From: Marinococcus sp. PL1-022
Lineage (GTDB): Bacteria > Bacillota > Bacilli > Bacillales > Marinococcaceae
Length of the DNA: 64,000 nucleotides
Assembly (NCBI RefSeq): GCF_033845285.1
Contig: NZ_JAWXCX010000001.1
Coordinates: 1,627,495 to 1,691,494, forward strand
Direction: 5' to 3'
In this document: positions 20,726-61,269 of the stretch, in pieces
Layout of the letters: the number at the start of each line of letters is the position of its first letter
Numbering within the stretch: the first letter of the stretch is position 1
The notes under the pieces: model-generated
Told to the model about the DNA's origin: nothing
What the model saw: only the letters and a program-made list of their open reading frames with translations
Databases searched by the model: none
Made by a program: the position numbers and the translations under genes

Positions 20726-21985
20726 TCATTCGCTCATTCGAAGGTCTTCAAGCAAAAGCTGAAGCTCAGTGTTATCCGGCTGCATGGCCGAAGCCTGCTC
20801 CAGATGCTTCAACGCATTCTCCCGGTAGCCGAGCTCAAGCAGCAGACGGCCGTATTCTTCAAGAAATACTTCGTTTTCCTGATACACACTGTACACTTCT
20901 TCGTATTTTTCTTTTGCTTCGACGGGCTCGTCCTGAAGATTTTTAGCCCGGGCGTAGTACCACTGAAAACGCACATCCGGCTCGCCCATTTCGTATAAAT
21001 GATCAATCAGGTCAATCATTGCCTCCGGTTCTTCCTGCTCCATCCACATGCTGAGAAGCGCATTCGCCGCTTCAAGATGAGCCGGATTTAAAGCAAGCGC
21101 CTCCTTGAGATGTTTTTCTCCCTCTTCTTCGTTGCCAAGCGCCATATACAGCTTCCCGGCCTCGGTATATAGATTTTCATTGTATTCATCTTCTTTAATG
21201 CCAGCCTTGGCTGCTTCCAGGGCTTTTTCATGGTCCTCGAGACCTTCGTAGCTTCGCACGAGATATGGATAGAGGGCTACAAAGTCTTTATCCATGTTCC
21301 GGAGCTCTTCGAATTTTTCCGCAGCCAGCTGATAATCGCTGACCTGCAGCGCCGTATAGCCGTACCCAAACAAAGCGTGGAGCTCCGTGTGTTCTTTCAG
21401 TCCGGCCTCGTAGTAGCTCAGCGCATCCTCAAACGAACCGGTCACGCTGTAAGCTTCAGCGAGACGAAGGCTCAGGCTCCCATCCGGAAATTTAAACCCG
21501 GCACCTTCCGCCTGCTTCAAATAAGGAATGCTCTTAGCGTAGTCTCCGCGGGATAAATAATAATCCCCAACGGCGGCAAGCAGCACCGGCTCTTCAGGAC
21601 TCTGCTTTAGTGCATCCAAAAGCTTCTGCTCCGCTACTTCATCGAGCCCCTGCATCTGATACAAGTCAGCAAGCAGCAGCTGCGCCCGCAGATACTCTTC
21701 GTCCGACTCCTTTACCTCAAGCAGCCACTCAATCGCCTCATCCTCATCGTCGAGATCAATCGCATTCTCGGCTGCAGTAGTCAGCAGTGCCCCTTCATCG
21801 GGATAGCGTCCAAGCAGGTCTTCAATCAGCGGCTGTGCCTTATCCGAGCGGCCCAGCTCCTGATACATTTCCACTATATCGTATTTTTCCTGATCATTTG
21901 CAGAGTGGCTGTATTTCTCCATCTCTTCAAGCCCTTTTTCCGTATCGCCGTTTCTTATCGTTTCAAGGATCGTTTCTAAATTCAC
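20726..21985 (-). CDS. ypiA: TPR-repeat protein YpiA
   Basis: A 419-residue acidic protein built of tandem tetratricopeptide repeats from end to end; several show the A-x3-Y-x3-G pattern (for example DYAKSIPYLKQAEGAG and NLYTEAGKLYMALG). A protein-protein interaction scaffold is the likely role; its partner is unknown. The start is GTG at 21985 after AGAAAGG. A TATAAT box lies about 50 bases upstream, so the gene probably has its own promoter separate from the terminated RNA at 22103-22204. Confidence 0.85.
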   Translation of the reverse strand: MNLETILETIRNGDTEKGLEEMEKYSHSANDQEKYDIVEMYQELGRSDKAQPLIEDLLGRYPDEGALLTTAAENAIDLDDEDEAIEWLLEVKESDEEYLRAQLLLADLYQMQGLDEVAEQKLLDALKQSPEEPVLLAAVGDYYLSRGDYAKSIPYLKQAEGAGFKFPDGSLSLRLAEAYSVTGSFEDALSYYEAGLKEHTELHALFGYGYTALQVSDYQLAAEKFEELRNMDKDFVALYPYLVRSYEGLEDHEKALEAAKAGIKEDEYNENLYTEAGKLYMALGNEEEGEKHLKEALALNPAHLEAANALLSMWMEQEEPEAMIDLIDHLYEMGEPDVRFQWYYARAKNLQDEPVEAKEKYEEVYSVYQENEVFLEEYGRLLLELGYRENALKHLEQASAMQPDNTELQLLLEDLRMSE

Positions 21986-22102
21986 GCCGTCAACAACCTT
22001 TCTTCCAGGTAAATCTCGTTTAGCACTGTGTAATTATAGCAAACATTGCCCGCTGTGACGAACAGAAAACCTTCTACACGCAGAAAGTGACAACGTTTAC
22101 AA

Positions 22103-22139
22103 AAACAAAAAAAAACACCTGATGTCTACTCATCAGGTG
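22103..22139 (-). terminator. Strong intrinsic terminator of the candidate sRNA
   Basis: Perfect 9-bp stem, 6-base loop and T9 on the minus strand. It also lies 130 bases downstream of tyrA and would stop read-through from the trp-his-tyr genes. Confidence 0.92.
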
Positions 22140-22204
22140 TGCCGCCACATCGGCTAGTTTTAAGATAAAGAGTATGGATAGGAGTGGAGAGAAACCATAC
22201 GCTA
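22103..22204 (-). ncRNA. Candidate small RNA between tyrA and ypiA
   Basis: A complete transcription unit with no reading frame. A strong promoter (22210-22237) would start an RNA near 22204. Hairpin 1 (22172-22200) has a 6-bp stem GTATGG/CCATAC and a 17-base loop UUUCUCUCCACUCCUAU. A short single-stranded A/U-rich linker follows, then a small hairpin GCCG-AUGUGG-CGGC. The RNA ends in a 9-bp terminator stem (CACCTGATG/CATCAGGTG) with nine U residues. ypiA starts 118 bases beyond the terminator and appears to have its own promoter, so this looks like a free-standing RNA rather than a leader. The C/U-rich loop resembles seed regions of Gram-positive sRNAs that bind ribosome sites. I do not recognise it as a named RNA family. 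It could instead be a tyrA-distal attenuator or an unknown cis-element. Confidence 0.6.
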
Positions 22205-22209
22205 ATATT

Positions 22210-22237
22210 AGTATAACGTAATTGTAAGCGTTGTCAA
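22210..22237 (-). promoter_or_regulatory. Strong sigma-A promoter of the candidate sRNA
   Basis: Consensus TTGACA, 16-base spacer, TATACT on the minus strand, in the gap after tyrA. It is among the best promoter matches in the window. The nearest feature downstream is the hairpin array at 22103-22200. Confidence 0.75.
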
Positions 22238-22270
22238 TGCTTCTCCCCTATTTTTTCATTCTTTTTTCGG

Positions 22271-23371
22271 TTAACCAATGTAGGATTCATAATCGTGCTT
22301 TTCGAGCTGCTGCATGCCGGCCCGCCGGTCGTCTTCAGTACGGAACGTCAGCTGCAGCACGCCCATAATGTCCTCTCTCGTTTCAAGGATCCGGATGTTG
22401 ATAATACTGATGCCGGTGCGTCCAAGAATACCGGTTACGTCCGAGATAACTCCGGGATGGTCCGGCACGTCGACAAACAGGTCATAAATGGCCGGTATGG
22501 CCCCCTGCTTCTTGGCAGGCAGTCCATCACGATAAGACTTGGCGTGCTCAAAAAACTGGTAAATCTGCTCTTTATCCCCCGCGGCAAGCATCTGTTCAAT
22601 GGCGCTCATCTGCTGCTTCCAGTCCTCCATCAGCTGCCGCATCACGTCATTGTTTTTCAGCAGAATATCCGTCCACATTTCCGGGCTGGCTGAAGCGATT
22701 CTCGTAATATCCCGGAACCCTCCGGCAGCGAGCTTTGTCACCCATGCCTGTTCGTCCTCCATCCCCTTCACCTGATGCACAAGGGCCGATGCCACAATAT
22801 GCGGAAAATGACTGATGACGCCTGTCAGCAGGTCGTGCTGTCCGTAGGAGAGCTCAATAAATTTCGCCTGTGTGCCCTGAAGCCAATCTTTGATCTCACC
22901 AATCTTTTCAGCAGAGCCCGGCCCGTTTGGCACCAGCACGTAGTAGGCATTTTCAAACAGACGGACACGGGCAGCGTGGACACCGCTTTTGTGGGAACCG
23001 GCCATGGGATGGCCACCAATAAAATGAACGTTCTTTTCCGAAAGAACGTCTGCCTGCTCGCAGATCGATGTTTTTGTACTGCCGACGTCGGTAACGATAG
23101 CTCCGGGCTTTAAAGGCATGCCAGCCAGCTGCACGAGCAATTTCTCAGTGGTGGCAACCGGAGTGGCAAGCACAACCAGATCTGCTTCTTTTACAGCGTT
23201 CTCCAGGTCCGGGGCAGCCTCATCAATAACACTCAAGGATACCGCCAGCTTTGTCTGGGCTTCATCTACATCTGTTCCTGTAATATAAACACCGGGATGT
23301 TCCTGTTTGATGGCAAGGGCAATTGACCCTCCGATCAGTCCCAGCCCGATAACTGCTGCTTTTTTCTGCAT
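22271..23371 (-). CDS. tyrA: Prephenate dehydrogenase
   Basis: NAD-dependent oxidative decarboxylation of prephenate to 4-hydroxyphenylpyruvate, for tyrosine. The 366 residues start with the Rossmann motif AAVIGLGLIGGSIALA. The middle holds IGGHPMAGSHKSGV with the catalytic histidine region. A C-terminal ACT domain (FVDVPDHPGVISDVTGILG) probably senses an aromatic amino acid. It is the last gene of the aromatic cluster here; aroE (EPSP synthase), which follows in B. subtilis, is absent. Confidence 0.95.
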   Translation of the reverse strand: MQKKAAVIGLGLIGGSIALAIKQEHPGVYITGTDVDEAQTKLAVSLSVIDEAAPDLENAVKEADLVVLATPVATTEKLLVQLAGMPLKPGAIVTDVGSTKTSICEQADVLSEKNVHFIGGHPMAGSHKSGVHAARVRLFENAYYVLVPNGPGSAEKIGEIKDWLQGTQAKFIELSYGQHDLLTGVISHFPHIVASALVHQVKGMEDEQAWVTKLAAGGFRDITRIASASPEMWTDILLKNNDVMRQLMEDWKQQMSAIEQMLAAGDKEQIYQFFEHAKSYRDGLPAKKQGAIPAIYDLFVDVPDHPGVISDVTGILGRTGISIINIRILETREDIMGVLQLTFRTEDDRRAGMQQLEKHDYESYIG

Positions 23372-23402
23372 CTGTTTCCCTCCAGGCCTCTCTTTGTTTC
23401 CA

Positions 23403-51354: not shown

Positions 51355-51471
51355 ATGCAATACTTCTTCTCATCTCGCAAGCACAGCTTGCAGGAGTTAG
51401 CACCTGACCGCATTGCCTGCGGCTGGTTGCTGAGACTTCCAAGGGCCGATCCCTCCATCTCTCTTGATAAG
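51355..51471 (-). promoter_or_regulatory. SAM-I (S-box) riboswitch controlling metI-yitJ
   Basis: The minus strand carries the S-box consensus in order. CTTATCAAGAGAGATGGAGG opens P1 and P2. CAGCAACC follows, then GGTGCTAACTCCTGC, and finally GAGATGAG closes P1 (aptamer about 51369-51471). Beyond it an AGAAGAAG segment can pair with the terminator 5' arm (antiterminator). High SAM should stabilise the aptamer, free the terminator and switch off metI-yitJ. A -10-like TATAAC lies just upstream of the aptamer. Confidence 0.96.
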
Positions 51472-51531
51472 AAACGTTATATGATTACTTTCCAAAGTAC
51501 AGGAAACGAATTGATATTGCAAGCAGCCTTT

Positions 51532-59541: not shown

Positions 59542-59652
59542 TCTTCCCAACTACGCATAGACATTTGTCCTCCAGAGAAATACATTTGGACATTTAAAGC
59601 ACAAAACGTTATCAAACTTTTTGTGAATGAACGAACAAGGGAGTGGAGTAAC

Positions 59653-61269
59653 ATGCAGAAAACTATGAACGAAGAAGAAACAGCAACCAGCAATCAGACG
59701 TTTCGTGTGCTTGTATCCGATTCGATGAGCAGCGAGGGCCTCGCCCCGCTTCTTGAAAGCGATCAGGTACAGTGCGTTCAGCAGCACGTTGATGATGCAG
59801 AAGGACTCGATTCGTTTGATGCCCTGCTCGTCCGGAGCGGCACCACTGTCACAGCAGAAGTAATGGATTCCATGCCAAACCTCCGCATCGTAGCCCGCGC
59901 CGGTGTCGGAGTGGATAACATTGACATCGATGCCGCTACCAAACGAGGGGTTGTGGTGATAAATGCCCCGGACGGCAACACAATCTCCACGGCCGAGCAT
60001 ACATTTGCCATGATGGCTTCGCTCGCCCGGAAAATTCCGCAGGCGAACGCTTCACTGAAATCCGGTGAATGGAACCGTAAAGGCTTCCAGGGAACGGAGC
60101 TTCGTGGAAAGACGCTTGGCATTGTAGGCTTCGGCCGTATTGGTTCGGAGCTGTCCAAGCGGGCCCAGAGCTTTGAAATGAGCGTCATCGTGTATGATCC
60201 GTTTTTGACAAAGGAACGGGCAAACGAAATGGGCGTAGACCTCCGGGACTTCGAAGAGCTGCTCGGGGAGGCGGACGTAATCACCGTTCATACACCGCTC
60301 ACCAAGGATACAAAAGGCATGCTTGGCCACGAGAACCTTGGCAAAACAAAGCCTGGAGTTATGCTTTTAAACTGCGCCCGCGGCGGCATTATTGACGAAG
60401 AAGCACTCGCCCATTATCTCGAAACCGGCCATGTGGCTGGCGCGGCCCTTGATGTTTACGAAGAAGAACCGGCGAATGAAAACCCTCTCGTCGCGTTTGA
60501 CCAGGTCGTCAGCACGCCGCACATAGCCGCTTCAACAAAAGAAGCCCAGTTAAATGTGGCTTCCCAGGTTTCAGACGAAGTGCTTCAGTTTCTGCAGGGG
60601 CTCCCTGCCTTAAACTCTATCAATCTCCCGACAATGTCAAAAGAAAAGTTTGAAGCGATACGCCCGTACTATGAATTTGCCCGCCGCATGGGTAACATCA
60701 TGTCCCAGAGCGTAAAAACGCCTGTTCAGGAGCTGAACGTACGCTACAGCGGAAACGTCACCGACCTTGAAACGTCCATTCTGACCCGCTCTCTGCTCGC
60801 CGGCTTTCTCCAGAGCCGCATCGACGCGCCGGTTAACGATGTGAATGCTTCCACCATCGCCAAGGAGCGGGGCATTGACTACGGGGAGCAGTTCGGATCC
60901 CAGTCGCTCGGCTATTCCAACCTGATTCAGGCGACCGTCGAAGGTGAAGGCCGTTCGTTTGCGCTGTACGGCACGTATGTGAAGGAATACGGCCCACGTA
61001 TTGTCCGCATTAACGACTTTAATGTCGACTTCTATCCGACCGGTCATCTTATTTATATCCAGCATACGGATAAGCCGGGGGTTATCGGTAAAATGGGACA
61101 AATTCTGGGACGGCATCAGATTAACATTGCCACCATGCAGGTGGGACGCCGTGAGGAAGGCGGCGAAGCCATTATGATGCTCGCCGTTGACCGTGAAGCC
61201 AACCAGGATGTGGTAAAGGATTTAACGTCCATTGAAGAAATTTCTCTGGCCGACACGATTGAACTATAG
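59653..61269 (+). CDS. serA: D-3-phosphoglycerate dehydrogenase
   Basis: First step of serine synthesis. The 538 residues are the long type: a catalytic core (to about residue 330) with the NAD loop GFGRIGSELSKRAQ, ARGGIIDE (catalytic arginine), EEEPANENPL and STPHIAASTKEAQ (catalytic histidine). An intervening substrate domain follows, then a C-terminal ACT domain (HTDKPGVIGKMGQILGRHQINIA). I chose ATG 59653, preceded by GGGAGTGGAGTAAC; the upstream in-frame ATG at 59623 has no ribosome site. Serine from this pathway is also the co-substrate of TrpB. Confidence 0.96.
   Translation: MQKTMNEEETATSNQTFRVLVSDSMSSEGLAPLLESDQVQCVQQHVDDAEGLDSFDALLVRSGTTVTAEVMDSMPNLRIVARAGVGVDNIDIDAATKRGVVVINAPDGNTISTAEHTFAMMASLARKIPQANASLKSGEWNRKGFQGTELRGKTLGIVGFGRIGSELSKRAQSFEMSVIVYDPFLTKERANEMGVDLRDFEELLGEADVITVHTPLTKDTKGMLGHENLGKTKPGVMLLNCARGGIIDEEALAHYLETGHVAGAALDVYEEEPANENPLVAFDQVVSTPHIAASTKEAQLNVASQVSDEVLQFLQGLPALNSINLPTMSKEKFEAIRPYYEFARRMGNIMSQSVKTPVQELNVRYSGNVTDLETSILTRSLLAGFLQSRIDAPVNDVNASTIAKERGIDYGEQFGSQSLGYSNLIQATVEGEGRSFALYGTYVKEYGPRIVRINDFNVDFYPTGHLIYIQHTDKPGVIGKMGQILGRHQINIATMQVGRREEGGEAIMMLAVDREANQDVVKDLTSIEEISLADTIEL

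Follow-up and report, generated by a model that had tools for sequence, protein, structure and literature searches.

Here, we identified an unannotated small RNA (sRNA) gene that is common to hundreds of Bacillus-like species. It was examined in a 64,000-nucleotide stretch of the Marinococcus sp. PL1-022 genome (hereafter the window). The sRNA spans several orders of Bacilli, has a 24-nt core that is almost free of substitutions, and appears neither in Rfam nor in the papers that were searched. To our knowledge, few sRNAs of Firmicutes are conserved beyond a genus or a family. The predicted gene is almost certainly a real conserved RNA gene, and its best explanation, which we consider likely, is a trans-acting base-pairing sRNA of the class Bacilli (22203-22107, minus strand) that would be repressed by CcpA and would block Shine-Dalgarno (SD) sequences.

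The gene is located on the minus strand between tyrA (ending at 22271 and named through its Pfam prephenate dehydrogenase domains) and ypiA (starting at 21985 and encoding a TPR protein). Promoter spacing, the terminator and the retention of the unit in relatives define a predicted transcript of ~97 nt (22107..22203), with its 5' end near 22203 and its 3' end within a run of nine U. The promoter scan gave a sigma-A type promoter, also present in homologous loci, with the -35 hexamer TTGACA (22232..22237, minus strand) and the -10 hexamer TATACT (22210..22215, minus strand) separated by a 16-nt spacer. Within the transcript, fold prediction placed hairpin 1 (GUAUGG/CCAUAC) at 22172..22200, the arms of which (GTATGG at 22200-22195 and CCATAC at 22177-22172, minus strand) enclose the 17-nt seed loop UUUCUCUCCACUCCUAU (22178..22194). 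An A/U linker separates it from hairpin 2 (22141..22154), which was obtained by direct reading and folding and is formed by GCCG (22154-22151) and CGGC (22144-22141); in many relatives this position is occupied by a short hairpin of unrelated sequence. The intrinsic terminator (22107..22140) comprises a 10-bp stem (arms at 22140-22131 and 22124-22115), a 6-nt loop and nine T at 22115-22107. The initial annotation had listed the promoter, both hairpins and the U9 terminator as parts of a roughly 100-nt unit, and all of them were recovered when the sequence was read directly and scanned. The unit is present as a single copy in its own genome. From the window sequence alone, the evidence for an sRNA gene is modest: the fold had a z of -2.94 (2 of 200 shuffles were equally good), and there were 2 promoter-like sites versus 1.4 expected and 3 terminator-like sites versus 1.2 expected. 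It is the conservation of the core, promoter and terminator in relatives, not these window statistics, that places the gene far beyond chance.

Each of the 28 genomes searched from the window's family contains the 24-nt core AUGGUUUCUCUCCACUCCUAUCCA, 27 of them with a full-core BLAST match and the 28th (G014) as a copy that is degenerate at the loop. Of the 61 relatives searched by BLAST, 33 had the sRNA, these 28 included. When 26 BLAST-found members were used to build a covariance model, the model detected the sRNA in 74 of 397 genomes from the order and in 123 of 399 from the class Bacilli. In addition, a scan of the genomes of 84,980 species for an exact 25-mer yielded 109 stretches, carried by Marinococcus (the window's genus, with M. 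luteus and M. halotolerans as the nearest), Alteribacillus, Salibacterium, Geomicrobium, Shouchella, Halalkalibacter, Halalkalibacterium, Pseudalkalibacillus, Fictibacillus, Aneurinibacillus, Paenibacillus, Melghirimyces and Kroppenstedtia. The core is identical across these genera, an invariance that the exact-match set has by construction; the exact 21-nt core was also found in 18 of 20 lower-scoring members fetched by the model. The sequence 3' of the core diverges throughout the homologues.

In a non-redundant set of 122 loci drawn from several orders, 121 have a promoter with fixed spacing and 9 or more of 12 matches, 121 have an intrinsic terminator, and in 118 the -10 box ends 11-15 nt ahead of the GG of the core; the median length of the homologous RNAs is 96 nt. 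Loss of the promoter and hairpin in close relatives had been named at the outset as an argument against the gene; instead, the promoter, loop and terminator are kept. Covariation, which had been suggested as a check on all three stems, gave limited support for hairpin 1 (92 distinct sequences in a 39-column alignment, with a score of 0.135 that none of 500 shuffles reached), for instance in column pair 7/35 (33 GC, 17 GU and 10 AU). RNAalifold on a MAFFT alignment recovered hairpin 1 alone and without covariation, as the divergence of the 3' half precludes its alignment. Considering the limited covariation, and that the outer pairs of hairpin 1 are missing in members from further orders (L194-L206), selection acts on the core sequence more than on the stem.

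The cre sites on both sides of the unit, its class-wide spread and its target set were all absent from the initial annotation. Two CcpA operators (cre), each an exact match to TGWAANCGNTNWCA, were found in the window. The first, TGTAAGCGTTGTCA on the plus strand (22223..22236), overlaps the -35 box, and the second, TGTAAACGTTGTCA on the minus strand (22088..22101), is located just beyond the terminator and could serve ypiA instead of the sRNA. A cre within one mismatch occurs on the unit in 104 of 122 homologous loci, compared with 1.5% of control segments (of equal length, from the same contigs). In most other genera the site lies inside the terminator hairpin, as seen in 105 of 133 loci, and no cre was evident in the Aneurinibacillus, Melghirimyces and Kroppenstedtia loci and part of the Pseudalkalibacillus loci. 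It is very likely that CcpA controls the sRNA gene; that the control would be repression is taken from established CcpA biology, the sequence providing the sites. More tentatively, we propose that an anti-SD sRNA, class-wide and nearly unchanged, may couple carbon sensing by CcpA to a brake on amino-acid biosynthesis, with a single DNA element (cre within the stem) acting as both CcpA operator and terminator. If the operator-in-terminator reading is true, repressor binding and formation of the RNA 3' end would use one sequence. Such a location also raises an anatomical question, namely why the operator was built there.

The C/U-rich exposed loop, already pointed out in the initial annotation, proved to be the conserved part of the RNA, forming the core of all homologues, and to have complementarity to the SD regions of particular genes, with matches to the ribosome-binding sites (RBSs) of serA, hom, pheA and others. 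Any C/U-rich loop pairs to some extent with SD sequences. The exact loop complement, the 13-mer AGGAGTGGAGAGA, had 24 extra occurrences in 40 genomes containing the sRNA versus 5 in 61 genomes lacking it, the genomes compared not being phylogenetically independent. Most of the fetched sites are 0-5 nt ahead of a start codon, including those of pheA (in the window's own genome, G000:C1:2045946, and two others), hom, serA, serC, two PLP enzymes of the Met pathway, purB and others. When the whole class was scanned for a 12-mer plus start codon, 40 of 123 genomes with the RNA had such a start versus 32 of 276 without it. A 10-mer plus start codon pattern failed to separate the two groups because it is a common RBS.

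The RBSs of pheA, hom and serA, three genes chosen from exact matches in some of the same genomes that were later tested, were fetched from as many as 61 relatives, both carriers and non-carriers of the RNA, and a cut-off of -18 kcal/mol was used for the predicted duplex. The serA RBS passed it in 19 of 25 sRNA-containing genomes versus none of the only five sRNA-lacking genomes, hom in 16 of 32 versus 1 of 18, and pheA in 14 of 33 versus 2 of 17; among 866 genes located close to the RNA, the background was 2.5%. When each genus was represented by a single genome, the difference between carriers and non-carriers held for hom (p = 6e-5) and serA (p = 0.0015). No such difference was seen per genus for pheA (p = 0.52), which is therefore unsupported as a target conserved beyond the window's family. 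Against 300 shuffled loops, the per-genus z values were -5.3 for hom, -4.9 for serA and -2.9 for pheA. The predicted SD complementarity of serA and hom is specific to RNA-carrying genomes, and it is likely that the sRNA blocks these two genes.

On the other hand, a conserved CcpA-controlled sRNA might act mainly as a sponge or via a protein, the RBS matches being ordinary purine-rich SD sequences. The 32 genomes that have such starts and lack the RNA would fit this possibility, and an almost invariant core could be the result of pairing with several partners. RosA is a known example of a sponge RNA under CcpA control, and a role as a sponge of RsaE has been suggested for RsaI (PMC8464778). However, the hom and serA sites are specific to sRNA-containing genera and to the exact loop (none of the 300 shuffled loops was as good for either gene), whereas background genes of the same genomes have no such bias (z = -1.3). 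We thus consider a sponge or protein-mediated role unlikely, though it is the best-surviving alternative to SD blocking.

It is much less probable that the sRNA pairs with SD sequences but activates or stabilises its targets, or that it belongs to a non-carbon response and the cre sites serve the genes next to it. The position of cre 2 between the terminator and a promoter-like site of ypiA would agree with the latter, but the cre is inside the RNA gene itself in the 105 loci mentioned above, and the predicted pairing spans the SD to 0-5 nt before the start codon, the classical blocking position. It is from this pairing position only that we infer repression, and not activation, as the direction of regulation.

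For the SD-blocking sRNA, a further check is provided by the window itself. The start with the best score against the loop in the entire window turned out to be that of serA (phosphoglycerate dehydrogenase; 59653..61269, plus strand; supported by TIGR01327 and a serA match), which makes serA an independent check; its predicted target site is GGGAGUGGAG (59639..59648, plus strand), the same as in relatives. A possible weaker site, GGAGGGAAA (23375..23383, minus strand), is present at the tyrA RBS; the duplex has a predicted energy of -17.9 kcal/mol, the interaction in co-folding was better than that of 98 of 100 shuffled loops, and the mean of the tyrA cluster among relatives is -12.4. Further near-perfect sites in the same genome precede aroG (DAHP synthase/chorismate mutase), ackA, gnd, hisH, panB, and the genes for a lactose/cellobiose-type PTS IIA and a 6-phospho-beta-glucosidase. 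On co-folding with the full RNA, pheA, serA, tyrA, aroG, ackA and the IIA gene scored above control genes. In the same calculations hisH and panB were no better than shuffled loops, and both were rejected as targets in this genome.

Based on these predictions, CcpA with HPr-Ser-P would repress the sRNA gene while glucose or other preferred sugars are present, and the sRNA would accumulate when glucose is exhausted. Its loop would then cover the SD sequences of the serA, hom, aroG/pheA/tyrA and ackA mRNAs, so that ribosome entry would be blocked and translation would stop. Blocking serA would reduce the drain from 3-phosphoglycerate, blocking hom that from aspartate, and blocking aroG/pheA/tyrA that from PEP plus erythrose-4-phosphate and from chorismate, while a block of ackA would stop acetate overflow. 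In this way, the sRNA probably turns amino-acid biosynthesis pathways (serA, hom) down when the preferred sugar runs out. If right, carbon catabolite control would gain a post-transcriptional branch in many bacilli of the environment and of industry, such as Shouchella, Halalkalibacterium, Fictibacillus and Aneurinibacillus, and the prediction would provide a ready target list (serA, hom, pheA, aroG and ackA).

Outside the window's family the recurrent matches are to other genes, namely an ABC-transporter ATPase (f68, large genomes) and an acyl-CoA dehydrogenase (f58 and f76), so the predicted target set varies by lineage. The RBS of the acyl-CoA dehydrogenase gene is AUAGGAGUGGAGAGAAAUG or close to it (in the f58 genomes L308, L309, L307 and L310, and in L358), with up to 17 nt of perfect complement to the whole loop, and this gene is likely a lineage-specific target. 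At the start of the ABC-transporter ATPase gene (MIIDVRKVTWQRDET...), GGAGUGGAGAGA is found in at least seven sRNA-containing f68 genomes (L328-L331, L333, L337 and L342). A loop complement of 13-16 nt was also observed at lactose/cellobiose-type PTS IIA genes in the window's own genome (L566) and in a distant member of the class (L352, 16 nt); its presence in two distant lineages suggests an old sugar-uptake target.

None of the 4227 models of Rfam 15 matched over the sRNA at gathering or permissive thresholds, and 17 divergent members gave no Rfam match either, RoxS/RsaE, FsrA, SR1 and riboswitch families included. This agrees with the initial annotation, which had seen no resemblance to RoxS or FsrA. 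The RsaOG model (RF01775) had no match in the window region 22050-22290 at E up to 10 and, with a limit of E = 0.1, none among the 17 divergent members; the relatives searched with it had no match, and control genomes were equally without one. In the open-access journal papers searched, we found no prior description of the core sequence or of such an RNA, and none of an sRNA at tyrA/ypiA or of CcpA-controlled sRNAs in Brevibacillus or Paenibacillus.

Several characterised sRNAs resemble the predicted one in part. RsaI (RsaOG) of S. aureus is repressed by CcpA, freed on glucose starvation, and pairs with the SD sequences of glcU_2 and fn3K to repress their translation (PMC9266662). Predicted CcpA repression and SD pairing are shared, here as read from sequence alone, but the predicted targets are serA, hom, aromatic genes and ackA rather than glucose uptake, and RF01775 fails on the window region, so the two RNAs are set apart by the model and not by the S. 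aureus sequence. SR1 of B. subtilis, which inhibits translation, is produced under gluconeogenic conditions, whereas CcpN and, to a lesser extent, CcpA repress it under glycolytic conditions (PMC8464778). Its regulation resembles that predicted here; however, SR1 is 205 nt long, encodes SR1P, targets ahrC and kinA, has its cre ~260 bp upstream, and gave no match in the Rfam search. RosA of B. subtilis is likewise under CcpA control (PMC8464778), but it is a sponge whose G-rich regions bind RoxS and FsrA, whereas the RNA described here is C/U-rich and complementary to RBSs. RoxS/RsaE and FsrA are short Firmicutes sRNAs whose C-rich regions pair with RBSs, the FsrA target leuCD belonging to amino-acid biosynthesis (PMC8464778). 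They differ in being under ResD/Rex or Fur control, and their models match neither the window nor its relatives.

The unit had initially been described as free of reading frames. A 12-codon AUG frame, MVSLHSYPYSLS, does exist within the predicted sRNA, although it looks fortuitous, since its stop position shifts between genera and third codon positions hardly vary. The core opens with this AUG, followed by a frame of eight conserved codons, after which the stop positions vary. The RNA could accordingly be read as an mRNA that encodes a tiny, conserved peptide (MVSLHSYP...) or as a dual-function RNA that also encodes it. We regard this as very improbable: third codon positions are also unchanged in members found by the model or BLAST (searches that do not depend on an exact core), a constancy that a peptide would not need; the AUG is ~7 nt from the predicted 5' end and has no SD; the C-terminus is not conserved; and two divergent members (L074 and L075) have indels in the frame. 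A peptide gene was rejected on the third-position invariance and the indels.

In most carriers, the predicted sRNA gene is found in the gap adjoining the end of the aro/his/tyr operon and ypiA. The weakest reading is that of a terminator-controlled, riboswitch-like 5' leader or attenuator acting in cis on ypiA or another downstream gene: in this genus ypiA does follow on the same strand ~120 nt beyond the terminator, but in 29 of 98 loci the gene that comes next downstream has the opposite orientation (mostly the RNA being inverted inside the same gap), downstream genes differ among loci, the core alone is conserved with no anti-terminator arm, the scan gave ypiA a promoter-like site of its own (the initial annotation had noted an apparent -10 box), and the suggested Rfam check revealed no matching riboswitch family. 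The leader of ypiA is therefore largely refuted, by the inverted orientation and differing neighbours in particular, and the original proposal of a trans-acting sRNA with its own promoter is supported by the retention of the predicted unit in relatives.

Several minor observations were also made. In many carriers (among L083-L187), the RNA and ypiA are separated by the gene of an uncharacterised protein (MEYILENVWTTDK.../MAYIIKNVLKELD...). L074 and L075 are two degenerate members of the window's family with small deletions in the loop, and in the genome of L075 (G014) the serA and hom sites still correspond to the loop in its normal form. The only Rfam match in the window is a SAM riboswitch (RF00162, 82 bits) at 51367-51473 on the minus strand. 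Between the tyrA stop codon and the -35 box, AUAGGGGAGAAGC (22238-22262, minus strand) is partly complementary to the sRNA loop, which could be due to chance or to a sponge in the tyrA 3' UTR; other Marinococcus (L003/L004) have AUAGGAGAGAAAC in its place.
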